Shown here: positions 1-14,040 of the stretch, in pieces | Layout of the letters: each line of letters begins with the position of its first letter | How positions within the stretch are numbered: position 1 is the stretch's first letter | Source: Treponema sp. | Lineage (GTDB): Bacteria > Spirochaetota > Spirochaetia > Treponematales > Breznakiellaceae | Assembly (NCBI GenBank): GCA_031265435.1 | Contig: JAISCR010000027.1 | Coordinates: forward strand, 1 to 45,746 | Reading direction: 5' to 3' | DNA length: 45,746 bases | The notes under the pieces: generated by a model | Seen by the model: the letters and a program-made list of their open reading frames with translations, nothing else | Told to the model about the DNA's origin: nothing | The model's database searches: none | Position numbers and translations under genes: made by a program

Positions 1-690
1 GGTGATTTCCGCTATGGCGGTACTCTTGTAAGCATTGGTGACGTGTTCCTTGACAGACGAATCCGGGAAGACGCCCTTAATTATCTTGGCAATACCCACG
101 GCAGCGTTGAATGTGTAAACGGTAATTGGTATGTGTTTTATCACCGTCAGACAAATTTGAATCAGTTCTCACGGCAGGCTTGCGCCGAACCCATCAGGCT
201 GATGCCGGATGGTTCTATACCCCAGGCGGAATTGACAAGCTGCGGGCTGAACGGCGGCCCTCTTGCAGGACGTGGAATTTATGAAGCCCGAATTGCCTGT
301 AACCTACGTTCAGAAAACGGCGTTTTTGCCTATGCCATGGTAAAGCCTGAAAATAGCGGCCACCCGTATTTTACCCAGGACGGAACCGATCGTGAAGATA
401 ATCCAGGTCAGTATATCGCAAACATGAGGGACGGCAGCATGGCGGGGTTTAAGTATTTCAACATGGACGGCGCGGAAGAAATAAGCGTAACCATCCGTGG
501 CGTCGCAGATGGTTTTCTTGTCCTTTCCGCAGAAACAGATGCTTCTCCGGCAGCGCGGATACCAATAACGTCTTGCGGCAAATGGTATGAACTATCCGTG
601 TCCCTGCCGCCTCTTTACGGAAAGCACGCGTTGTATTTTACCTATCAGGGCAGCGGCAGTCTGGATTTTAAGTCATTCAGATTAATATGA
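1..690 (+). CDS. GH43-type glycoside hydrolase, C-terminal part (partial at window start)
   Basis: Open from base 1 with no start codon in the window; 229 residues remain. The first ~50 residues (GDFRYGGTLVSIGD, then NYLGNTHGS and NWYVFYHRQ) match the last blades of family 43 five-bladed propeller glycosidases (xylosidase/arabinofuranosidase type). The final ~130 residues look like the CBM6-like beta-sandwich that often ends these enzymes (ALYFTYQGSG, LDFKSF near the stop). The likely role is release of pentose or similar sugars from plant polysaccharide; the exact substrate cannot be read because the catalytic part is missing. Its stop codon overlaps an ATG (ATGA at 687-690), so it was probably translationally coupled to a following gene that is now degenerate. 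Family assignment is fairly sure, specificity unknown. Confidence 0.75.
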   Translation, partial: GDFRYGGTLVSIGDVFLDRRIREDALNYLGNTHGSVECVNGNWYVFYHRQTNLNQFSRQACAEPIRLMPDGSIPQAELTSCGLNGGPLAGRGIYEARIACNLRSENGVFAYAMVKPENSGHPYFTQDGTDREDNPGQYIANMRDGSMAGFKYFNMDGAEEISVTIRGVADGFLVLSAETDASPAARIPITSCGKWYELSVSLPPLYGKHALYFTYQGSGSLDFKSFRLI

Positions 691-1252: not shown

Positions 1253-2302
1253 ATGACATTGCCGGACAGGCCCTTGGGCCGGGAAGAACTCAAAAAGGTG
1301 ATCGAAGGAAGGGGCGCGGCCCGGCGTATCCCCATGGCGGTTCACGAATGGATCAATCCGGAGATCTTTGGCAGCAGGGCCCCCCAATACCGGGAAGTGC
1401 TGGCTCAGTATCCTTCGGATATAGTAAAAATCTACCTGAATATTCCCCAGGTCTTTGACGCTCCCGGGGATGATCCTTCATACAGGTGGCTTAACTTTGA
1501 TAATCCCTTCCCCAGGGGTACAGCCCTGGACGCCGTAAGCGCCCTGGACGACTGGGCAAAACTTGACGGTGTTCTTGCGGATTTTCCCAACCCCAACTAT
1601 CCGGGGCTTATCACTAAAAATCCGCCCTCCGGTGACGGCGTTTACCGTGTGGGCCTCTGGTGGTATTGGCTCTTTGAGCGGCTCTGGTCCCTCAGGGGGA
1701 TGGAAAACGCGCTCTGCGATTTCTACGAAAACGGGGAAGAAGTCCACCGCCTCTTCCGGGCTTTGACCGATTTTTACAAGGCCATCGTTGCCAGAGGCCG
1801 CAGGGAACTGGGGCTTGACGCCATCTGGACCAGTGACGATATAGGCATGCAGACCGGCCCCTTCTTTTCCGTGGACATATTCCGGGAATTCTTTAAGCCC
1901 TATTACAGGGAACTCATCGCCCACTGCCACAGTCTGGGCATGCATTTCTGGCTCCACACCTGCGGGAATATCAAAACCTTTATTCCGGATTTAATAGAGA
2001 TTGGCCTGGACGTACTCCATCCCATTCAAAAATATACCATGGATGAAAAAGAAATTGCCGCGGATTTTGGCAAAGATATCTGTATTTGGGCCGGCATGGA
2101 TGTGCAGCGTACCATCCCTTACGGCAGTCCCGAAGATGTCCGCCGGGAAGTCCGCTTCATGTTCGATACCTATTACCGGAAATCCGGCCGCCTCATTCTG
2201 GCGGCGGGTAACAACATGACGGCAGACACCCCGCTGGAAAGCCTCCGCGCCCTTCTGGACGAAGCCCTGCGCTACGGAACCCGGCTCTGTTCGGATGCGT
2301 AA
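1253..2302 (+). CDS. UroD-family (MtaA/CmuA-like) putative methyltransferase
   Basis: 349 aa, ATG start 4 nt after the permease remnant, with AAAGGA about 8 nt upstream. Fold family: uroporphyrinogen decarboxylase TIM barrel. The porphyrin-binding N-terminal signature of HemE (P..MRQAGR) is absent; that position reads IPMAVHEWIN. The C-terminal half has HTCGN (His235-X-Cys237), the first two ligands of the His-X-Cys-Xn-Cys zinc motif of MtaA/MtbA-type methyltransferases, followed by the family segment DVLHPIQ. The expected third Cys about 77 residues later is not there (LAAGNNMT instead), so metal binding may differ. I infer transfer of a methyl group from, or a related activation of, a small substrate in the cytoplasm. 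Heme synthesis is unlikely; the substrate is unknown. Confidence 0.75.
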   Translation: MTLPDRPLGREELKKVIEGRGAARRIPMAVHEWINPEIFGSRAPQYREVLAQYPSDIVKIYLNIPQVFDAPGDDPSYRWLNFDNPFPRGTALDAVSALDDWAKLDGVLADFPNPNYPGLITKNPPSGDGVYRVGLWWYWLFERLWSLRGMENALCDFYENGEEVHRLFRALTDFYKAIVARGRRELGLDAIWTSDDIGMQTGPFFSVDIFREFFKPYYRELIAHCHSLGMHFWLHTCGNIKTFIPDLIEIGLDVLHPIQKYTMDEKEIAADFGKDICIWAGMDVQRTIPYGSPEDVRREVRFMFDTYYRKSGRLILAAGNNMTADTPLESLRALLDEALRYGTRLCSDA

Positions 2303-2381: not shown

Positions 2382-3548
2382 CTATTTTCGATCCAGTTCG
2401 GCTATTTCTTTCTTTATGCGGTCCAGATCCAGGGGATATTTGCCGTATTCCCGTATCAGTTCCACCATGTACGCGTAGGAATCCGGGGAAACGCCGCTGG
2501 TAACCGAATGATCACTCTGGCAGATCCAGCCGCCGCCCAGGGCGCTTTGCAGCTTGTAAAGGGCCTGCCGTTTGATACGGTTTCTGTCGCCGCTTTCGAG
2601 TTCCCGCACATCGTAGTTCCCCACAAAACAGAGTCTCCCGCCGTAATCCTTCTTCAACTCCACCACATCAAGATGGGCCTTACATTCCACAGGGTTATAA
2701 CCTTCAAGACCAATGTCAATAAAATCGTTGTAAATGAGGCTCGCGTTGCCGCAGCCGTGGTATATGACCATAAGCCCCGCCTTGTGGCAGGCGCCGATTA
2801 TCCGCTCGGTAATGGGTTTAAAATATTCCCGCCAGATTGCGGGGCTGAAGAGCATGCCGTTAACATAGGCCACATCACCCCAGACATACATTCCCGAAAG
2901 CCTTCCTCTGCTTTCTTCAATCTGGTATTCCGTGAGCCCTACCAGGAAATCGCCGAGCCGCTTCACAAACGCGCCGAACATCTCAGGTTCGGTCATCATC
3001 CAGATGAGGGAATTCTCCGTCCCGATGCAGCGCCAGAGATATTCGTAGCCTTCACAGATGGAGCCGAAAACGGGGAAATCTTTACAGTACGCGTCAACCC
3101 GTTCGGTCCATGAGGGGATGTTTCTTCCTATGGCGTCCCCTACGCCGTTTATTTGATCGTCTCCGGTACGATAGAGCCGGCGTTTGTCCCTGGCGCTCTC
3201 GATAACGAATTCTTCCATTTCTTCCGGTTCGCTTACAGAAAATGTGTCGTAGTGGGGCATGGGCGCGGAGCCGGATCTTCTGATTGTAGCGCCAAAGCCG
3301 GTACGCAATTTGATATTCACCCCGTTGTCTTCGAGAATTTCAAAATCCCGGATTACCGGATCCATGTTTGGATTAACAACAATATAATCAAGATCGAACT
3401 TTCGGTATATGTCCAGATCATCTCCCCATTTTTCTTTTGCTTTTAACATAAAGCCGGTCCAGAAAAAATCGGAAACCGGTACCCGGTCACCTTCTTTATT
3501 GGCAAGCGCGGCGCGCATTCTTGCTTCTTTTTGTTCTTTTATATTCAT
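2382..3548 (-). CDS. UroD-family putative cobamide/zinc-dependent methyltransferase
   Basis: 388 aa, ATG start preceded by GGAGGAG. Last gene of the CUT2 transporter operon. It is the only UroD-family member here with a full His-X-Cys...Cys set: H264, C266 (YHGCGN) and C343 (GGWICQSDHS), spaced 77 residues between the cysteines as expected for the zinc site of MtaA/MtbA-like thiol methyltransferases. The substrate-binding N-terminus lacks the HemE arginine signature (VPVSDFFWTG at that position). The family moves methyl groups between corrinoid proteins and thiols or demethylates methoxy/methyl compounds; which applies here cannot be told. Context (sugar importer, mutarotase, two other UroD relatives) suggests action on an imported methylated carbohydrate-like compound. 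No corrinoid-binding protein is encoded nearby. Confidence 0.8.
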   Translation of the reverse strand: MNIKEQKEARMRAALANKEGDRVPVSDFFWTGFMLKAKEKWGDDLDIYRKFDLDYIVVNPNMDPVIRDFEILEDNGVNIKLRTGFGATIRRSGSAPMPHYDTFSVSEPEEMEEFVIESARDKRRLYRTGDDQINGVGDAIGRNIPSWTERVDAYCKDFPVFGSICEGYEYLWRCIGTENSLIWMMTEPEMFGAFVKRLGDFLVGLTEYQIEESRGRLSGMYVWGDVAYVNGMLFSPAIWREYFKPITERIIGACHKAGLMVIYHGCGNASLIYNDFIDIGLEGYNPVECKAHLDVVELKKDYGGRLCFVGNYDVRELESGDRNRIKRQALYKLQSALGGGWICQSDHSVTSGVSPDSYAYMVELIREYGKYPLDLDRIKKEIAELDRK

Positions 3549-3935: not shown

Positions 3936-5216
3936 TTACTCGCACACGATTTTCATCGCAATATTCGCTATTTTTGTAAGTCTCGACGGATCGTAGTGTA
4001 CGGTGCTTATGTCCTTGAAGATAATTTCCAGGGGACAGCCGTACTGCCGGGCCAGATCTTTTGTCTGCGCCAGATCCTTTCCAACGGCCTCTTCGTCAAA
4101 ATTATCCCATGCGAGGAAGGCCGGGTTGGGCTTGCTGGAAAGGACATAGTCGCGGCCTAACTGCTCGGCCATGCTCTGACGATTGGCCCAGGGGCTGACC
4201 GAAACCTTGCGGAGGTTCGGGATGCGGCGAACCGCGTCCATCTTGTGTTCCAGGGGATCGCAGCAGCCGTAGTAGACCAGGCCGAAGCGGCTGAAGATGG
4301 GCATGAGGTAGTCGATTTCATATTCCTCATACATGGCCGGCGAAACCGAAACGAGGGGTTGGGCCATGGCATACATCCAGAGATCTCTGGTACGGGGCCG
4401 TTTGGGGTCAAAGCCGGGCGCGGGAAGTTTATCCGTCCAGGCGCCTGTGGTATGAATCGTGGCCTGGGGGTAACGGTAGAGAAGACCCTGTTCCTCAAGC
4501 TGATCCAGCATGGACATATAGGCCGCCGCAAGCCTCCCGATGAGCGCATGCATTAAATCGGAATTATCGACCAGGCCCATAAGGAGATCCGTCATGCTCA
4601 TCCACATGCCGATAGGATCCCAGCAGGAGAGATAGGGGTCGTAGCCCCAGCCTTCTTCGCGCAGGGGCATGATGCCATCGAAGAGCCAGTGGGCTTTTTC
4701 CATGCGCCGTTGGGTTTCCGCCTCATCATGGCCGACCACGGGCATCCTTATTTTTTGCATGACATCATCAATGGAACTGAACTGATTTTCATAATCGTGG
4801 CTCACGACATCGTTGGCCGCGTCGGTGGCCAGGGTGTGCTCCCGGATTTTCATGCCGAACATGGAGCCGGGGAGGTTATTTACCGCCGTAGGTGCGTCGA
4901 TCAGGGCCAGGGGAACGCGAATATAATCTTCCACAACCATGTCTACAGGGAACTTTTCCCACTGGTAGAGGACTTTACGGAACCGGTCTTCATAGAAGCG
5001 GCAGAGTTCGTCGGAACATCTCAGGCTGAGCGCCTCATCGGCATTGAGTTCGTTCCAGCAGACCTGGTCGATCGTGACCATGGGCCTTTCGGGTGAAAGG
5101 CCGTTGAGCGCTCTCCAGAGCCGCTTTTTTTCTTCCTGTACCGGCAGGACCGCGATTTCGGCAACTTTCCCGGCAAGCTCCCGGAGGATGTCTCTGTCTT
5201 GGTTAAGCGATTGCAT
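3936..5216 (-). CDS. Large UroD-family protein, YGCC variant (copy 2 of pair)
   Basis: 426 aa, about 70-80 residues longer than classic UroD/MtaA proteins. It belongs to the same subfamily as the gene just upstream in the operon. Shared landmarks are FPVDMVVEDYI, the segment NDVVSH, AMAQPLVSVSPAM, then YYGCCDP (residues 315-319 plus DP), SVSPWAN, SKPNP and a closing FKDISTV. The usual metal-binding His-X-Cys is replaced by Tyr-Gly-Cys-Cys, so metal binding, if any, would use the two adjacent cysteines or other residues. ATG start, with GGAG about 12 nt upstream. It is likely a cytoplasmic TIM-barrel enzyme acting on the product of the importer; the reaction is unknown. It is certainly not HemE by signature. 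Confidence 0.7.
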   Translation of the reverse strand: MQSLNQDRDILRELAGKVAEIAVLPVQEEKKRLWRALNGLSPERPMVTIDQVCWNELNADEALSLRCSDELCRFYEDRFRKVLYQWEKFPVDMVVEDYIRVPLALIDAPTAVNNLPGSMFGMKIREHTLATDAANDVVSHDYENQFSSIDDVMQKIRMPVVGHDEAETQRRMEKAHWLFDGIMPLREEGWGYDPYLSCWDPIGMWMSMTDLLMGLVDNSDLMHALIGRLAAAYMSMLDQLEEQGLLYRYPQATIHTTGAWTDKLPAPGFDPKRPRTRDLWMYAMAQPLVSVSPAMYEEYEIDYLMPIFSRFGLVYYGCCDPLEHKMDAVRRIPNLRKVSVSPWANRQSMAEQLGRDYVLSSKPNPAFLAWDNFDEEAVGKDLAQTKDLARQYGCPLEIIFKDISTVHYDPSRLTKIANIAMKIVCE

Positions 5217-5242: not shown

Positions 5243-6565
5243 TCAGCCGTAATATGTATCCAGCACATTCGTAACTATTCGCGCCCAGGAAAAAATATTT
5301 TCCGGGTTTTTACCTACGGTACTGACATCCTTGAGGACAAACTCATACGGACATTTGTTTGCCATGCAGACATCCACGGTTTCGCTTATTTCGCGGCGCA
5401 GTACATCCTCGTCGATCCCCATTGCAACGGCCGCGGGATTCGGCTTTCGGGCTATAACGAAATGCCCGCCGGATTCTTCGGCCATCCGCCGGACGTCCGC
5501 CCAGGGGCTGCAGCCGATTTTTCGCATATTGGGAAATGTTTTGAGAATATCCATGCAATTATCCATAGGCTCGCAACAGCCGTAATACACAAGGCCGAAT
5601 TTCGACATGAAGGGCCGGATATAGTCAAACTCGAATTCTTTCCGCATCGCGGGGGACACCATGGAAAGGCACTGGGCCATCCCCCGATACCACAGATCCT
5701 TGTATCTGACAGTACCGGTGTAATCTTCGGCGGGAAGTTCACTTGTATAAGTCGGGGTGCAGTGCAGAGTTTCAATGTTCCAGTCAAGCAAACCCTGCGC
5801 AAGCATTTGGTCAAAAGCCACAATGCCGAGTTCGGTAAATTTCGCCATGGTTTTGTGAATAAACTCAGGCCGTTCAACAATATCTTCAAGGCAGGGGGTA
5901 ACACCGCGGTACATCGAAAGAGAGTCCCATGTTGAAAGCCTTACAAAGTGTCCGCGGAGCTTGACATTGAGTATACCGTCAAAGAGTTCGCAAAGAGCCG
6001 CCGCATTTTCCGCGTCGATTTCAGGATATGCCTTGATGACAGGAGTTTTGAGCGCCTCCAGTTTATCTTCGGTATCAAGCTGATCCTTATAGCCGTGGGA
6101 GACAACGTCATTATCTTTGTCCATTACAAGAATGTCTTCATCTATGCCGATTCCTATACCGGTATTCGTATAGGCCTTCATCAGGTAGAGGGCGTCCTCC
6201 ACAACCATATCAACCTGAAAATGCTTCCAGCGGAAAAGACTGCGCCTGAAAAAATCTTCCGGGATGCGCCCTTCTTCGGATTCGCAGTGCAGGGTAAGTT
6301 CTCCATTCCAGTTCATTTCGTTCCAGGGAAGCTCGTCTATCAACACCGGCGGGCGGACAGGCTTTAGGGAGTGCATATCTTTGCCTCGCCGGATACGCTC
6401 GGCGTTTACAGGATTGGCCGCGATTTCCCCGTATTGCTTTGCAAGTTCGCGGAGAAGCCGCTTATCACCGGCGGGCAGATTCCACTCCGGTTTCAAGACC
6501 TCTTCCGGCCCGGAAAACCCAATCGCCCCGCCGCTTAATCCGCCTACACTAAACAGTTTCCCCAT
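5243..6565 (-). CDS. Large UroD-family protein, YGCC variant (copy 1 of pair)
   Basis: 440 aa. It is homologous along its length to the next gene of the operon, with 26 nt between them. Shared landmarks: FQVDMVVEDALY, NDVVSHGY, CLSMVSPAM, YYGCCEP (Tyr-Tyr-Gly-Cys-Cys at 327-331), CSPWADVRRMAE, ARKPNPAAVA and LKDVSTV. An N-terminal extension of about 30 residues (MGKLFSVGGLSGG) is not shared. ATG start with GGAGA 7-11 nt upstream, just after a strong hairpin that follows the binding-protein gene. The two YGCC proteins may form a heteromer or act on successive groups of one substrate. No membrane segment or signal peptide is seen. Function is inferred only from family and context. Confidence 0.7.
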   Translation of the reverse strand: MGKLFSVGGLSGGAIGFSGPEEVLKPEWNLPAGDKRLLRELAKQYGEIAANPVNAERIRRGKDMHSLKPVRPPVLIDELPWNEMNWNGELTLHCESEEGRIPEDFFRRSLFRWKHFQVDMVVEDALYLMKAYTNTGIGIGIDEDILVMDKDNDVVSHGYKDQLDTEDKLEALKTPVIKAYPEIDAENAAALCELFDGILNVKLRGHFVRLSTWDSLSMYRGVTPCLEDIVERPEFIHKTMAKFTELGIVAFDQMLAQGLLDWNIETLHCTPTYTSELPAEDYTGTVRYKDLWYRGMAQCLSMVSPAMRKEFEFDYIRPFMSKFGLVYYGCCEPMDNCMDILKTFPNMRKIGCSPWADVRRMAEESGGHFVIARKPNPAAVAMGIDEDVLRREISETVDVCMANKCPYEFVLKDVSTVGKNPENIFSWARIVTNVLDTYYG

Positions 6566-6634: not shown

Positions 6635-7828
6635 TTACCACTGCGGCGGCTGGAATCCCGCAACATTTCCCGTGGTGATAATGTCCTGGGCGAGGTATCC
6701 CAGTTCAGGAAGGGACTTGCCGTTGAAGAAGTCGGCCATGGCCTTGACCACCGCCGCGCCGTCTCCTTCGGCGGTCTGATAGGTGATGCCAAGCACATCG
6801 CCGGCGGCAACAAGATCCATCCCCGCCTTTGAATTGCCCGCCGCCACGACGAGAACATCGGTACGGCCCGCTTCCTTGAGGGCGTCAACCGCGCCAATGG
6901 CCTGGGACGAATCGTCGGCCAGGAAGATGGCGTTGAGGTCTCTGCCGAAACGGGTGATCCAGTCGGCCACTACCTGCTTGGTGGCGGCAGCGTCAAAGCC
7001 GGGGCTCTGGAAATCCAGAGTCCTGATGTCGGGGGCGTAACCCCTCAGTTCCGTGCGAGGGCCCCACATACGGGCAAAGTAGGGAGAACCGCCGGGGTTG
7101 TGGGTAACGTAGACAATACCGCCCTTCTTCCCCATGGTGTCCGCCATGTGGCGGGCCAGTTTCCGCATCTGTCCCCAATCATCCGGCCCGGTCCAGGTTA
7201 CCATGTAGCGCATAGCCTCGGCGGTGGTAAGGGTGTTGGTCCCAAAGGCGGGAATACCTGTCTGGTTGATATTGCGGAACTGCTGTACCGCGGATTCCGC
7301 GTTGATGGGGATAACCCCGATGGCGTCGGGTTTGGCGTTGATCGCCTGGGCTATCATCTGGTTCTGCACGTTGACATCCCAGTTCGGCGACCAGAGATCG
7401 ATGGTCATACCCAGGGCCTCGGCAGCTTTCTTGGCCCCATTTATATAGGCGGTAGTCCAGGGATGATCCCCATGAACAATCACGATAACATGCTTGCCGA
7501 TACTGCCGTTGGCAGGTGATTTGGCCGGGTTGATCTTCGATCCGGCGTTCCACCCCGCGTATTCCTGATCGTACCAGTGCAGGGGATCATCCTCCGGCAG
7601 GGCGTTGGGGTCCGAAGGCCGCGCGGGAACCTGCTTTGCGGAAAGGGGCGGCATCAAGGGCTGTCCGTCGGTACTCCTGACACCTGAATAATTCAGGGCC
7701 AGAGACTTCTCCAGATTATCACTGGCGACTCCACCTCCGCCTCCGGCCTGTCTGCCGCCGCCGGCGAAGAGCAGGGATCCGCCGAGAGCCAGAACCACAA
7801 GAACCGTCAAACACACACGTTTCTTCAT
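6635..7828 (-). CDS. CUT2 sugar ABC transporter, periplasmic binding protein
   Basis: 397 aa from the ATG at 7828. I prefer this start because GGAGG lies 5 nt before it; a TTG 12 nt further upstream would overlap that SD. The N-terminus is a signal peptide (basic MKKRVC, hydrophobic core, SLLFAGG), followed by a glycine-rich linker. The mature part is a type I periplasmic binding protein of the ribose/galactose class: HVIVIVHGDHPW, GAKKAAEALG, IGVIPINAES, FGTNTL, NAIFLADDSSQAIGAVDALK. It captures the sugar-like substrate and delivers it to the two permeases encoded upstream. It lies fourth in the operon and is bracketed by stem-loops that probably increase its level. Substrate unknown; the mutarotase and UroD genes suggest a methylated or deoxy sugar derivative. 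Confidence 0.9.
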   Translation of the reverse strand: MKKRVCLTVLVVLALGGSLLFAGGGRQAGGGGGVASDNLEKSLALNYSGVRSTDGQPLMPPLSAKQVPARPSDPNALPEDDPLHWYDQEYAGWNAGSKINPAKSPANGSIGKHVIVIVHGDHPWTTAYINGAKKAAEALGMTIDLWSPNWDVNVQNQMIAQAINAKPDAIGVIPINAESAVQQFRNINQTGIPAFGTNTLTTAEAMRYMVTWTGPDDWGQMRKLARHMADTMGKKGGIVYVTHNPGGSPYFARMWGPRTELRGYAPDIRTLDFQSPGFDAAATKQVVADWITRFGRDLNAIFLADDSSQAIGAVDALKEAGRTDVLVVAAGNSKAGMDLVAAGDVLGITYQTAEGDGAAVVKAMADFFNGKSLPELGYLAQDIITTGNVAGFQPPQW

Positions 7829-7862
7829 ACTTTCCTCCAAAAAAGATAAATTCTATGCTAAA

Positions 7863-7943: not shown

Positions 7944-9020
7944 TCAACCGGACCCAAGGCCGCCGGCGTGAGAAGGCCGTCGAGGTTCGCCTTCTGAAAG
8001 TTCCTCCAGAAGCTGCGCCCGCTCTCCGATCCGCTTTGACCGGAAGTAGTTGGTAATGGTCTCGTAGACAACACAGGCCGCCAAAACCAAGCCGTTGAAG
8101 AGTATCTGTACCTCGTATTTACCGGAAAGGGAAGTGAGCACATTGGACATGACCATGAGGCCGTATACCGAAGCGTAGGTATTCCACACGCTGCCTTTTC
8201 CGCCCGAAGTGGCGGTTCCTCCGATGATCGTTGCCGCCAGGGCAACAAGGAGGGGAGAGATACCCTTTTCCCCGAGGTTTGGCAGGGCGGAACTCTGGCA
8301 GATGGCGAAGACGGCTCCGCCTATGGCACAGGCCAGCCCCGAAAGAGCAAAGACCGAAATGGTCATGGCATCCCGCTTGATTCCCGCAAGCCATGCCGAT
8401 TCTTCGTTACCGCCTATGAGGTAGATGTTGCGCCCCCACCGGGTATTCCGCATCAGGAAGGCTACGACGATGACAAACAGGAGCACGAACACAACTTTGG
8501 GTGACAGGGGCAAAAAGCCAAGCTTCATATTGAGGAAGTCGGCAAAGGCAAAGTCCCCCTTGTCTCCGATTTCCGCGCCCCCGCAGTAAATGTACATGGC
8601 TCCCCGGAGCACAAACTGCATACCCAAAGTGGTGATAAAGGAATGTATCTTCGCCTTACTCACCAGGATACCGTTGAGGAAGCCCACGAACAGACCGGCT
8701 ATGACAGCCACGGTAATCGAAAAGGCCCAGCCCCTGCCGGACAGGGTGTGCATACCCATGGTGAGAACAGCCCCCATATTTGCCATTGCCCCGACGGAAA
8801 GATCCATGTGGCCTGCCACCATGCAGATGGTAAAGCCCAGGCCCAGCATCGCGTAGAGCACCGTACTGTCGAAGATACCTTTCATGTTAAAGGCTGAAAA
8901 GAAATTCCTTACGAAGATGCCCATGATCATCATGATCAGGATAAGCAGATAAAAACGGTAACTGTTGATAGTCTTGCCCAGGCTGCTGTTTTGGCCGGCG
9001 ACCGGTTTTTTTGTGTCCAT
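7944..9020 (-). CDS. CUT2 sugar ABC transporter permease (RbsC-like), subunit 2
   Basis: 358 aa from ATG at 9020, chosen because GGGAGGG stands 6 nt upstream. Polytopic inner-membrane protein of the RbsC/AraH/XylH type: about 8-10 hydrophobic segments, the family GHMDLSVGAMANMGAVLTMG segment, FLNGILVSKAKIHSFITTLGMQFVLRG split across helices, and LVALAATIIGGTATSGGKGS near the C-terminus. It forms the membrane channel with the other permease gene, whose stop lies 1 nt upstream of this start. The C-terminal cytoplasmic tail (about 35 residues, charged) is longer than usual. Two different permease genes imply a heterodimer, as in galactofuranose-type (YtfT/YjfF) importers; that parallel is by organisation, not proof of substrate. 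Confidence 0.9.
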   Translation of the reverse strand: MDTKKPVAGQNSSLGKTINSYRFYLLILIMMIMGIFVRNFFSAFNMKGIFDSTVLYAMLGLGFTICMVAGHMDLSVGAMANMGAVLTMGMHTLSGRGWAFSITVAVIAGLFVGFLNGILVSKAKIHSFITTLGMQFVLRGAMYIYCGGAEIGDKGDFAFADFLNMKLGFLPLSPKVVFVLLFVIVVAFLMRNTRWGRNIYLIGGNEESAWLAGIKRDAMTISVFALSGLACAIGGAVFAICQSSALPNLGEKGISPLLVALAATIIGGTATSGGKGSVWNTYASVYGLMVMSNVLTSLSGKYEVQILFNGLVLAACVVYETITNYFRSKRIGERAQLLEELSEGEPRRPSHAGGLGSG

Positions 9021-9021
9021 T

Positions 9022-10041
9022 TTATTCCCTCCCCAACCTGCGGGAAGAATTGGTGTTGAGCCACACAATGAAGAGGAACACCAGTCCCTGTATAAGCCAT
9101 TGATTAAAGGTAGGTATGCCGATGAGGTTCATGATGTTGCTGAGTATCCCGATGGTTATGACACCGCCGAATACACCCACCATGGTACCTCTGCCGCCCG
9201 CCAGGGTCATGCCTCCAAGGAGCACACTGGTAACCGCTCTGAAGTCGTACCCGTCGCCGGTATAGTAAGCCCCGGTCTTTGCCACCGACGCAAGGAAGAT
9301 ACCCGCAATGGAACAACAGATCGCGTTTATCACATAGACCAGCACGATAGATTGCACCACATTGATCCCCGAAAGCCGGGCCACCTCGTAACCGGAACCC
9401 GCCACCTTGAGCTGGCTCCCGTACTTTGTTCCGGTTAAAATAAAGTGACCGATGATGAACATGATCACCATGACAATAACCATGATGGGAATGCCCAAAA
9501 AGGATGATCGTGAAATGGCGTTGAAGGTTTCCACAGCCTTCAGGTTGTTTTTGGCAATCATGTCCGGGTATATCTGGGTTCCGCTCCAAATCCAGCGCAC
9601 AATACCGCTCATCACGAAGTTGAAGGCCATGGTCCAGATAATGGGATGGGCGCGGAATTTTCCCACCATGAGTCCGTTTATCATCCCCAGGAAGGCTCCG
9701 GCAACGACACCGAAAAAGACCGAAGGCCAGAAGCCCATCCAGAGGGTGGCAACCGCCACCATCCCGGAAAACGCTATGGTCATGGGAGCCGACATATCGG
9801 CATAATTGGCCGAATAGGTAACAAAGGACATACCCACCGAAACCATACCCAAAAGGGCTATGGCCTGGACAGTGGCCCGGATATTGCTCGCGGTAAAATA
9901 CTTGCCCGGCGCGACAAAGCCGCCGAGTATCAGGAGCACCGCGATAACCGCGTAAATACCCACCCGGTTGATGAAGAGGATAAAAGGATTCTGCTTTATC
10001 CTGCGGGAATCCGTTCCGCCCTGCTTTACAGCTGCACTCAT
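9022..10041 (-). CDS. CUT2 sugar ABC transporter permease (RbsC-like), subunit 1
   Basis: 339 aa; the ATG overlaps the ATPase stop (ATGA), indicating translational coupling. Multi-pass membrane protein with the RbsC-family core: FVTYSANYADMSAPMTIAFS, FLGMINGLMVGKFRAHPII, FNFVMSGIVRWIW, and late in the protein AVTSVLLGGMTLAGGRGTM. Its N-terminal 25 residues are cytoplasmic and basic. It pairs with the downstream permease to form the transport pore for the same ATPase. The two permeases are clearly paralogous but well diverged. Function as a carbohydrate importer subunit is secure at family level; substrate is not. Confidence 0.9.
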   Translation of the reverse strand: MSAAVKQGGTDSRRIKQNPFILFINRVGIYAVIAVLLILGGFVAPGKYFTASNIRATVQAIALLGMVSVGMSFVTYSANYADMSAPMTIAFSGMVAVATLWMGFWPSVFFGVVAGAFLGMINGLMVGKFRAHPIIWTMAFNFVMSGIVRWIWSGTQIYPDMIAKNNLKAVETFNAISRSSFLGIPIMVIVMVIMFIIGHFILTGTKYGSQLKVAGSGYEVARLSGINVVQSIVLVYVINAICCSIAGIFLASVAKTGAYYTGDGYDFRAVTSVLLGGMTLAGGRGTMVGVFGGVITIGILSNIMNLIGIPTFNQWLIQGLVFLFIVWLNTNSSRRLGRE

Positions 10042-11612
10042 TTGACAAATTCTCCCTTGCCGTTAGCCGCAAGAAGGAGCGAACTTTCGCTCATGTTTTT
10101 CCGGTCGATTTCACCGATGATGTGTCCCTGGCGCATGATCACCGCCCGGTCGCAGAGGCCCACCATTTCTGGCAGATCAGAAGTAAAGAGAATAACCGCA
10201 TTCCCTTTGGCTGCCAGTTCGGCAACAGCGTCGTGGATTATTTCCTTGGCGCCGATGTCGACGCCCCGGGTAGGCTCATCAAGAATCATCACCCTGGGCG
10301 CCGCGGCTATCCATTTTGCCATGAGCACCTTCTGCTGGTTGCCGCCGCTTAAATTCCGTACCGGCACATCTATGCCGGGTGTGTAGATTTTAAGTTTGTC
10401 GATGAGGCTTGTAACCACGCCGCGGTTTCTTCTCCCCGAATAGAGAACCCCTCTTGAAAGCCGGGGAATGATGCAGGCCAGACAGTTTTCCGCAACGCTG
10501 AGGGCCAGGGCGAGACCGTCGGTCTTGCGGCTTTCCGTGAGGTACGCGATACCTTTATCGATGGCCTCGCTCATGCTGCGGATTTTGAGTTTTTCCCCAA
10601 AGAGGTAGATATCTCCGCCGTCCAGCGGATCTATACCCATGACGGATCGTGCAAGCTCGGTACGTCCCGCCCCCGCAAGACCGCAGATCCCGAGGATTTC
10701 CCCGGCATGGACATCGAAGCTCACATCATGGAAGAAGCCGTAACGGCTCACCTTGTCCAGGCGGAAGGCTTCTTCGCCGATTTTAGACTCCCGTTTCGAA
10801 TAGAATTCGTCGATGGAACGTCCCACCATGAGTTCGACAATCTCTTCGCTTGAGACGTCTCCAATGTCGCAGGTTTTGACATGCCTGCCGTCCCGCATCA
10901 CCGTGATCCTGTCGGCAATCTCGAAGATCTCCTGGAGATGGTGGCTTATGTACGCGATGGCGATCCCCTGGTTTCTAAGCTGCCTGATAATTTCAAAAAG
11001 TCTGGAAACTTCGGCGCTTGAAAGGGCCGAAGTGGGCTCGTCCATAACGAGAACGAAGGGATTGGAACCCAGAACTTTGGCAATTTCCACAAGCTGGGCC
11101 TCGTGCTGGGAGATTTCCGAAATGGGGCGGTGTATATCGAGATCTTCAAGGCCGACCCTGGCGAGGAGGGCCCTGGAATCCCGTTCCACCGCCTTCCAGT
11201 CGACAAAAGGAATTCCCCTTTTTGGGGGAAGCCTCCCCGCAAGGAGATTCTCGGCAATGGAAATAGGACGGGCAAGGCTAAGTTCCTGGTAGATCATGCC
11301 GATACCGTATTCCTTGGCCGCCGAAGGACTGTGCAGACTGATCGGTTTCCCGTTCATCAGCACCTCTCCTGAGTAATCCGTAAAAGAACCGGCCATGATC
11401 TTCATCAATGTGGATTTACCGGCCCCGTTCTCGCCGACCAGGGCATGAACTTCACCGGGCTTTACGCCAAAACTGACATCATCAACCGCCAAAGTCCCGG
11501 GAAAGGATTTTGAAACATTTTTCATTTCGAGGGCAAATTCCAAAGATTCGCCGGGAAACTTCGTTTTCCGTTCGACTGAATTTTTAAGGTCGGCGTTCAC
11601 TTTACCATCCAT
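10038..11612 (-). CDS. CUT2 sugar ABC transporter ATPase (RbsA/MglA-like, double cassette)
   Basis: 524 aa with two nucleotide-binding cassettes. The first has Walker A GENGAGKST (about residue 60) and Walker B VLVMDEPTSAL. The second has the degenerate Walker A typical of RbsA (GLAGAGRTE), signature LSGGNQQK and Walker B MILDEPTRGVD. It powers sugar import through the two downstream permeases. It is the first gene of an eight-gene - strand operon. Start choice is uncertain: the ATG at 11612 has AAGGGG directly adjacent, closer than ideal, and a GTG four codons in is possible. The N-terminal ~25 residues before LEFALEMKNVSKSF are not conserved. It is divergent from the LacI-SBP fusion gene, which probably controls this operon. 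Confidence 0.92.
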   Translation of the reverse strand: MDGKVNADLKNSVERKTKFPGESLEFALEMKNVSKSFPGTLAVDDVSFGVKPGEVHALVGENGAGKSTLMKIMAGSFTDYSGEVLMNGKPISLHSPSAAKEYGIGMIYQELSLARPISIAENLLAGRLPPKRGIPFVDWKAVERDSRALLARVGLEDLDIHRPISEISQHEAQLVEIAKVLGSNPFVLVMDEPTSALSSAEVSRLFEIIRQLRNQGIAIAYISHHLQEIFEIADRITVMRDGRHVKTCDIGDVSSEEIVELMVGRSIDEFYSKRESKIGEEAFRLDKVSRYGFFHDVSFDVHAGEILGICGLAGAGRTELARSVMGIDPLDGGDIYLFGEKLKIRSMSEAIDKGIAYLTESRKTDGLALALSVAENCLACIIPRLSRGVLYSGRRNRGVVTSLIDKLKIYTPGIDVPVRNLSGGNQQKVLMAKWIAAAPRVMILDEPTRGVDIGAKEIIHDAVAELAAKGNAVILFTSDLPEMVGLCDRAVIMRQGHIIGEIDRKNMSESSLLLAANGKGEFVK

Positions 11613-11697: not shown

Positions 11698-11745
11698 CGC
11701 TTCTTGAGAGCCGTCCATAAAAAAGCGGTTTTGGGGAGCAAAAAA

Positions 11746-11761
11746 ATCTAAACGTTTAGAT
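11746..11761. promoter_or_regulatory. Perfect 16-bp palindrome, probable LacI-type operator
   Basis: ATCTAAACGTTTAGAT, centred on a CG step as in LacI/GalR-family operators. It lies directly before the SD (GGAGG at 11764-11768) of the LacI-SBP fusion gene, so binding there would block that gene's transcription or translation start (autoregulation). It is 134 bp from the start of the divergent CUT2 operon. Assignment to this regulator is inference from family and position. Confidence 0.7.
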
Positions 11762-11772
11762 TCGGAGGAACC

Positions 11773-14040
11773 GTGGCGACTATTAAGGATGTAGCGCGGG
11801 AAGCGGGGCTCAGCACCGCCACCGTATCCTGTACCCTGAGCGGTAAAAAAAATGTTTCCCACAAGGCCCGGATAAAGATCCTTGCGGCCATCGAAAAACT
11901 TAACTATGTTCCCAACGAGAGCGCCCGAAAGCTCAGGCTCCAGACCAGCCGGGACATCGGCATCCTCCTTACCAGCATAGACGATCTCTACCACAGCGAA
12001 ATCTTCAAAGGGATCACCCAGGCGATTCAGGAACACAACTATTCAATTAATATCGGTTTTTCCAATAACCAGCCCCGGCTGGAGGAGAAAATTATAGACG
12101 GGTTCCTGTCCCGGAATTTTGCCGGGATCATCCTGATAAGCTGCCTGGCAAACAATTCGGCCTATATACGGAAGCTGCTCTCCCACGGCATCCCGGTAGT
12201 TTTTATAGAACGGCGGCCGAAGAAAAAAGACATTAATTTTGTGGGCATATCAAATAAAAAAACCATTACCTTTCTGGCGGAAAAGCTCTCTTCCGGCGGT
12301 TATAAAAACATCTGGCTCTTCTGCGGGAATCCGGGAATCTCAAGCGAGAGCGATTGTGTTACGGCATTTAAGGAATGGTGCCTGAAAAATCCGGTGCGGG
12401 GCCGGATCAACTACACCAACATGACCAGGGAAGACGCCTTCCGTGTCGCCCTTGCGGAATTTTCCGCCAAGCCCCGGCCGGAGGCGATCATCGCCACCTC
12501 GGGAAACATGGCTCAGGGGATTTTGGAAGCGGCCAAGGTGCTGGGAGTTTCCCTGGAAAAAAGCGCCCTTATCACCTTTTCGGAGGAAACCTGGATGGAC
12601 ACCCGGTATCTCCCCCAGATGATCCATACCTCGCGGCCCGCCTTCAAGCTGGGTTCCGGCGCGGCGTCCCTTTTGCTGCGGAACATCACCGCCGAAGGGA
12701 AAACAGAACGGAAGGAAACCATCCTGCTGGACGATAACATTCTCAATACCGGCATCACCATACCCCGCTATGACCCGGCAAAGAAAGAGAAGTCCCGGAA
12801 AATTCCGGAACTCCGTATCCTGATGCTGGACAGTTCATTTGCATCCGGCGCCATGGAGATACTTGCCCGGAAATTTCACAACGATCATGGCGTTGCCCTG
12901 ACAATCGAAAAGGAAACGCAGAACCGGCTGTTTAACCGAATAATAGAAGATTCCGAATTCGGCAAATCCCGCTACGATATCTACATGTTCGATATTCCCT
13001 GGCTCAATTTCCTTGCGCAGAATACCTGTCTGGAAGATATAAGCGATTTTATCAAAGCCAATAAAAATTATTTTAATTCGGTTTTAAAGGAAGTGCTCGA
13101 TAATTCCCTGTATCAGAACCGCTATTACAGCATCCCTTTTGCGGGAGGGGCGCAGTTAATGTTCTACCGTACAGATCTCTTTGAAGATCCAATCATATCG
13201 AAAGATTATTTCAATATCCATAAAACCAAACTGCGGCCCCCCAGAACCTGGCCGGAATTCAACGCCGTTTCCCGCTTCTTTACCCGGCGCTTCAATCCGT
13301 CCTCGCCGGTGGAATTCGGTACAAGCTGTGCGGGAATAATCGCGGAAGAACTGTGCCCGGAAATTTACGCCCGTATCTGGGGTTTCGGCGACCGCTTCTT
13401 CGGCAGGAACAACCTTCCCCAATTCTATTCGGAGAGCAATGTCCGGGCCTTTGAAAACCTTATGGAACTTCAGAACTATACTCCGGGCCCGATTTTTTCT
13501 ACCAGCTGTATGGACGCTGTCAGGGATTTCTACAGCGGAAAAACCGCCATGTTAATCACCTACACCGAATATGCGTCGAAAATAATGGACGCCATCAACC
13601 GGAACATCTTCGGCAAGCTGGACTTTACCTTTATACCGGGCATGGCGCCGATTTCGGTAGGCTGGAATCTGGGGATCAATATTTTTTCAAAGAAAACCGA
13701 AATAGCCTACCGGTTTTTCAAATGGCTCTACCGGAAGGATGTAAATTATTACCTTACGATTCTGGACGGCCAGTCAACTTCGATTTATCCTTTCCAGAAC
13801 AACGAACTATTGAAACTCTACCCCTGGATGCAGATCACCCTCGACAATCTCAAATATGCCCGGAAACGAAACCCCCGCACCAAAAATTCCATCGTCATTC
13901 CCTGGAACAAAATTGAAGACATCGTCTACCTGAATACCGGACGCATGTTTGAAGGGAAACCGGCAGCGGACTGTTTAAAAGCCATTGACGAAGCGATTAC
14001 CGGCCTTATGGATGTTTACGGTCACTTTTATCGGGACTAA
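11773..14040 (+). CDS. LacI-type repressor fused to a family 1 solute-binding (MalE-like) domain
   Basis: 755 aa, GTG start with GGAGG 4 nt before it; about 420 aa longer than an ordinary LacI protein (~335). Residues 1-55 are a LacI helix-turn-helix and hinge (ATIKDVAREAGLSTATVSC, NYVPNESARKLR). About 60-335 form the type I periplasmic-binding-like sensor (GIILISCL, IIATSGNMAQGILEAA, ALITFSEETW). About 345-750 are a type II extracellular solute-binding domain (LRILMLDSSFASGAMEILA, YDIYMFDIPWLNFLA, YYSIPFAGGAQLMFYRTDLF, PRTWPEFN, GKTAMLITYTEYASKIMDAI). There is no signal peptide or membrane segment, so the MalE-like part must act in the cytoplasm as a second ligand sensor. It probably represses or activates the divergent CUT2/UroD operon and itself. 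The reading frame is continuous, so the fusion looks genuine. Confidence 0.85.
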   Translation: MATIKDVAREAGLSTATVSCTLSGKKNVSHKARIKILAAIEKLNYVPNESARKLRLQTSRDIGILLTSIDDLYHSEIFKGITQAIQEHNYSINIGFSNNQPRLEEKIIDGFLSRNFAGIILISCLANNSAYIRKLLSHGIPVVFIERRPKKKDINFVGISNKKTITFLAEKLSSGGYKNIWLFCGNPGISSESDCVTAFKEWCLKNPVRGRINYTNMTREDAFRVALAEFSAKPRPEAIIATSGNMAQGILEAAKVLGVSLEKSALITFSEETWMDTRYLPQMIHTSRPAFKLGSGAASLLLRNITAEGKTERKETILLDDNILNTGITIPRYDPAKKEKSRKIPELRILMLDSSFASGAMEILARKFHNDHGVALTIEKETQNRLFNRIIEDSEFGKSRYDIYMFDIPWLNFLAQNTCLEDISDFIKANKNYFNSVLKEVLDNSLYQNRYYSIPFAGGAQLMFYRTDLFEDPIISKDYFNIHKTKLRPPRTWPEFNAVSRFFTRRFNPSSPVEFGTSCAGIIAEELCPEIYARIWGFGDRFFGRNNLPQFYSESNVRAFENLMELQNYTPGPIFSTSCMDAVRDFYSGKTAMLITYTEYASKIMDAINRNIFGKLDFTFIPGMAPISVGWNLGINIFSKKTEIAYRFFKWLYRKDVNYYLTILDGQSTSIYPFQNNELLKLYPWMQITLDNLKYARKRNPRTKNSIVIPWNKIEDIVYLNTGRMFEGKPAADCLKAIDEAITGLMDVYGHFYRD

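Follow-up and report, generated by a model that had tools for sequence, protein, structure and literature searches.

Both types of periplasmic binding fold have been recruited as sensors by transcription factors, each separately: LacI carries the type I fold and SgrR a solute-binding domain. LacI/GalR regulators such as CcpA, PurR and RbsR consist of a helix-turn-helix (HTH), a hinge and a PBP-I core, have palindromic operators with a central CG and exert local control over a sugar importer. SgrR and Vibrio cholerae DsvR (HTH + SBP_bac_5) are cytoplasmic transcription factors with a C-terminal solute-binding-protein (SBP) fold (PMC13060122), and in engineered chimeras of periplasmic binding proteins and DNA-binding domains the binding protein serves as the sensor of the repressor (PMC6079105). 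The protein described here, encoded in a 45,746-nucleotide stretch of Treponema sp. DNA (GenBank assembly GCA_031265435.1, contig JAISCR010000027.1, positions 1 to 45,746; hereafter the window), has these LacI/GalR features in common but differs in its roughly 400 extra residues, which make up a second binding-protein fold, and in a PBP-I core that lacks the hallmark effector Arg and Asp. It likewise ends in a solute-binding-protein fold, but its HTH and SBP family differ from those of SgrR and DsvR, and only the fusion has a LacI-type core in between; the Pfam models for SgrR and SBP_bac_5 gave no match in it up to E 1. Unlike the synthetic chimeras, the natural fusion retains the LacI core between HTH and binding protein. 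Its C-terminal domain resembles the secreted family-1 SBPs of CUT1 importers (1eu8, 6dtq and free relatives such as L181) in fold, in SBP_bac_1 sequence and in cleft positions, but it has neither a signal peptide nor partner CUT1 permeases, is joined to a LacI-type repressor and, in the window, lies beside a CUT2 importer. No published description of a LacI-SBP fusion was found in an open-access text search, which used few word combinations and leaves most subscription papers outside.

The open frame, the Pfam matches and the full-length relatives agree with the original prediction of one continuous reading frame holding a LacI HTH, a LacI sensor and an SBP domain (Table 1). Pfam matches of all three domains exceed the curated cut-offs. 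The HTH is the best-conserved segment in the family conservation profile; matches to Peripla_BP_4, Peripla_BP_1 and Peripla_BP_3 lie inside the sensor core (E 1.9e-15 to 2.2e-9), and SBP_bac_1 and SBP_bac_8 match residues 373–657 (E 1.2e-19) and 364–663 (E 9.7e-19), respectively. The linker shows the lowest conservation in the family, and identity among orthologues is mostly lowest there as well; the domain boundary had been placed at about residue 335, close to the start of the conserved SBP block. The N-terminus is the HTH itself and, as foreseen, carries no signal peptide, and the regulator presumably sits in the cytoplasm. Among solved structures, the LacI part matches CcpA, the nearest by sequence, PurR and RbsR, and profile searches with the SBP part gave 5iai, 1eu8 (trehalose/maltose-binding protein), 6dtq (MalE3) and 4rya. 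Foldseek searches with AlphaFold models gave the same domain assignments as the sequence-based searches, with TM-scores of 0.2–0.37 by query length and rmsd values of about 8–22 Å. Since both models, the full-length one and the one for the SBP domain, were poor (mean pLDDT 58 and 57, from shallow alignments) and the TM-scores low, geometry and domain contacts entered none of our inferences. A PBP-I effector domain belongs to the definition of the LacI/GalR family (PMC4052901), and the protein has one (PF00532, PF13377, PF13407) in addition to the N-terminal LacI HTH (PF00356). Because the additional family-1 SBP domain takes it beyond the usual two-domain length, we file it as a LacI/GalR variant and not as a plain member; by its domain content it is a new, three-part variant of the family.

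Table 1 Features of the LacI-SBP locus (window coordinates).
Feature	Position	Strand	Basis or remarks
Second URO-D superfamily protein, opposite strand to operon	1253..2302	+	PF01208
URO-D superfamily protein	2382..3548	-	PF01208; MtaA/CmuA-like in NCBIfam, below cut-off
Operon protein, 426 aa, without Pfam or NCBIfam match	3936..5216	-	profile scans
Operon protein, 440 aa, without Pfam or NCBIfam match	5243..6565	-	profile scans
CUT2 periplasmic binding protein, separate type I fold	6635..7840	-	PF13407 (Peripla_BP_4)
CUT2 permease	7944..9068	-	PF02653 (BPD_transp_2)
CUT2 permease	9022..10041	-	PF02653 (BPD_transp_2)
CUT2-type ABC ATPase, first gene of divergent operon	10038..11612	-	PF00005 twice; nearest NCBIfam AraG/RbsA, below cut-off
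Candidate operator palindrome AATCTAAACGTTTAGATT, perfect	11745..11762		10 bp ahead of GTG, in divergent intergenic region
Regulator of the LacI-SBP fusion type, 755 aa from a GTG start	11773..14040	+	open frame, Pfam, conserved full-length relatives
LacI helix-turn-helix, residues 3–48	11779..11916	+	PF00356, E 1.5e-17
LacI-type PBP-I sensor core, residues 61–316; C195 and S270 at the canonical Arg and Asp positions	11953..12720	+	PF13407/PF00532/PF13377
Linker, residues about 317–345, weakly conserved	12721..12807	+	family conservation, orthologue identity
Family-1 (MalE/TMBP-type) solute-binding domain, residues about 346–750; cleft D407, W410, W631	12808..14022	+	PF01547/PF13416

A homology search, as had been suggested, found full-length relatives with the same domain order in two phyla: MAGs of termite-gut Treponema and further Spirochaetota assemblies have them at 97–62% identity, and two Lachnospiraceae at 37%. 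Matches occur in 18 of 150 genomes of the window's family, some relatives being broken at contig ends, in 5 of 247 genomes of a phylum sample (E ≤ 1e-60, the window's own genome included) and in 23 of 250 Lachnospiraceae genomes, with about 40 copies and at most four per genome; the larger scans scored two to four candidates per genome, and these counts are lower bounds. A Bacillota-wide scan added few full fusions, six of the eight matching genomes aligning to one half of the protein only, and a search of viral contigs for more SBP relatives found none. The comparison set comprised 44 fusions with the same domain order. That a sequencing or assembly error had joined two separate genes, a worry raised with the original prediction, is vanishingly improbable: nothing turned up in its favour, the same fusion recurs in many independent assemblies over two phyla, one genome being a single contig, and relatives that carry it in full exclude a frameshift or merged-gene artefact.

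A maximum-likelihood tree groups the 44 fused SBP parts in a single clade (support 100/99), separate from the 27 free SBPs included, and on this tree the LacI-SBP architecture has a single origin. The further two fusions have diverged in the LacI part, the further they tend to have diverged in the SBP part (Spearman 0.82 for 946 pairs, which are not independent of one another). Among Treponema orthologues dN/dS is about 0.1–0.3 for the SBP domain (for example, 0.089/1.07 against L011 and 0.116/0.85 for L013 against L014) and about 0.1–0.25 for the LacI sensor, synonymous sites being close to saturation in distant pairs, while the linker is loose. Purifying selection on the SBP domain is about equal in strength to that on the LacI sensor, and the low dN/dS led us to reject decay of this domain. 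By profile score the closest free SBP is L181, a secreted protein of the CUT1 type with genes for CUT1-type permeases behind it; it is absent from the tree. The tree includes a second subclade, clade B (11 members: L044, L046, L099–L101, L103, L105, L107–L109 and L111), besides clade A (28 members), to which the window's protein belongs. The possibility that the fused SBP of clade B is a recent copy of the adjacent CUT1 binding protein was rejected, as L044_5, L046_1 and L107_3 are placed elsewhere in the tree.

We take the effector contacts of ordinary LacI proteins to be the Arg three residues ahead of a conserved Gly and the Asp of an [FY]D motif, presumably LacI R197/D274 and PurR R190/D275, the columns having been equated by motif position and established knowledge. 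We aligned the fusions with 31 LacI proteins of the ordinary type encoded in the retrieved loci, a few of these controls being near-duplicates. Among the 44 fusions, Arg occupies the first column in none of the fusions (Cys in 26, Phe in 10) versus 28/31 controls, and Asp the second in 1/44 versus 26/31. Five more LacI proteins, inspected by eye, have the Arg in all five cases and the Asp in four. The LacI domain, as judged from these columns, has lost both hallmark effector contacts. This Arg and Asp are common but not obligatory in the LacI/GalR family, and CcpA, too, deviates at the Arg position. Other residues of the pocket region are conserved in a family-specific manner, namely E192 (33/44), C195 (26/44), W274 (31/44) and R147 (39/44), and the altered pocket, with its family-specific E192, C195, W274 and R288, may bind something unusual.

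The SBP cleft presents a different picture. D407 is found in 38 of the 39 fusions that make up clades A and B versus 4 of 27 free SBPs, and W410 in 36 of the same 39. W631 is present in 27/28 members of clade A and replaced by Gly in 10/11 of clade B, a split by subclade as expected for a specificity position. In a profile alignment D407 and W631 fall on chain residues counted 69 and 294 of 1eu8, which we take to be TMBP Asp70 and Trp295, assuming that the published numbering is offset by one. The Asp equivalent to D407 has been tied to lobe closure (PMC7949145), and Trp295 has been put at a sugar-contact position (PMC13311272). R699, in a gappy part of the alignment, occurs in 23/28 members of clade A and 3/11 of clade B and may match the LpqY hinge Arg. 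Many invariant positions (P455, Y465, G589, M593) are structural and also found in free SBPs. The second domain has not undergone the loss of binding-pocket residues that had been named as telling against the original idea, and it looks intact as a sugar-binding fold.

The candidate operator had been given as 11746–11761; the palindrome is there, but it extends one base further at each end. By sequence, the locus has the LacI/GalR hallmark of a palindrome with a central CG near its own and the target promoters. AATCTAAACGTTTAGATT is the sole copy in the window's genome within 3 mismatches, and exact copies of the 16-bp ATCTAAACGTTTAGAT occur in both phyla: several Treponema have them and, among the Lachnospiraceae, L086, L088 and L091. 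The AAACGTTT core lies upstream of 23/28 clade A members (shuffled mean 0.45, maximum 3) and of 0/11 clade B members, two of which have TATAACGTTATA-like palindromes by eye. A second operator copy stands just 3' of the regulator at L013:10294–10307 and L014:3557–3570, ahead of a relative (65%) of the window's 3936–5216 gene, which suggests that this gene is part of the regulon. A weak promoter-like site at 11717–11688 on the minus strand (0.4 expected by chance) could serve the divergent operon.

That operon runs from 11612 to 2382 on the minus strand, so the regulator is indeed divergent from CUT2 and URO-D genes, as had been noted. Treponema orthologues with enough flanking sequence are mostly divergent from CUT2 genes as well, often with a URO-D gene between regulator and CUT2 genes; L019 has a different gene set. 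Many clade A members from Lachnospiraceae also adjoin URO-D and CUT2 genes. In 11/42 loci, among them L012, L013, L015, L047, L087, L089, L094 and L102, a short gene assigned to the L-rhamnose-mutarotase family (PF05336, by scanning one representative) lies near the regulator, mostly beside CUT2 and URO-D genes, and the clade A neighbourhoods hint at a rhamnose-like or methylated sugar. Clade B mostly adjoins CUT1-type permeases and also GDPD-like or metallo-beta-lactamase-fold genes. Because the fused domain is of the CUT1/MalE type and the adjacent importer in the window is CUT2, the fused domain was not copied from the importer's own binding protein. The genome as a whole (G000, a 3.7-Mb assembly) has a large sugar-uptake repertoire, with 58 SBP_bac_1 and 15 LacI HTH matches, and an ORF at the window edge (43–690, plus strand) has weak Glyco_hydro_43 and CBM_6 matches below cut-off.

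We propose that the protein is a local, autoregulated repressor of the LacI type whose SBP domain has taken over ligand sensing, the LacI core serving as dimeriser and transducer, a proposal that we hold to be evenly poised between right and wrong. Behind it stand a conserved domain order, the sequence of the operator, an SBP domain under purifying selection, LacI contacts that are lost and SBP cleft residues that are retained. A dimer of the regulator would bind the AAACGTTT palindrome and repress, rather than activate, both the regulator gene and the divergently oriented CUT2 importer/URO-D operon. Solute arriving in the cytoplasm would then be bound by the SBP domain and close its cleft, and the LacI-type core would relay this closure to hinge and HTH, so that the protein leaves the DNA. 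In this scheme the core would retain its fold and dimerisation role without the usual effector clamp.

The protein might instead be a dual-input sensor, in which the LacI core binds one metabolite in a remodelled pocket, the SBP domain recognises a different one, and the two signals converge on a single HTH. Purifying selection on the LacI sensor and the conserved E192, C195, W274 and R147 speak for such a design, but that conservation could equally reflect the demands of folding, of dimerisation or of an interface with the SBP domain, and we regard a dual input as unlikely. Since essentially all fusions lack the Arg and Asp of the canonical effector site, we give two-signal integration lower odds than a scheme in which only the SBP domain senses; the original idea of two ligand sensors finds partial support, on the SBP side, where the cleft residues are kept, while on the LacI side any pocket would probably be a non-canonical one. 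An SBP domain that binds no small solute and serves in oligomerisation or protein contact, much as LacI tetramerises through its C-terminal segment or CcpA binds a partner, has a still smaller place in our thinking. CcpA, the closest sequence match to the LacI part, responds to a phosphoprotein, and many of the invariant SBP positions are structural ones common to free SBPs. However, the cleft positions are better conserved in the fusions than in free SBPs, and position 631 switches between subclades that adjoin different transporter types, so that we consider a purely structural role quite improbable.

Sensing by the SBP domain would make this family a case of natural sensor replacement, which we put forward tentatively, at a little under an even chance: a LacI repressor would have gained a type II (MalE-type) sensor, its type I pocket, now without the effector clamp, would have been reduced to passive transduction, and the three-part design would have spread over Spirochaetota and Lachnospiraceae with the operator kept in the window's clade. 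Such a protein would offer a natural template to biosensor builders who fuse binding proteins to repressors (PMC6079105). An older sensor seemingly without its clamp and a newer one under selection stand together in one family and, if the reading is true, a family with both folds would allow us to ask how a repressor swaps its sensor yet keeps its switch.
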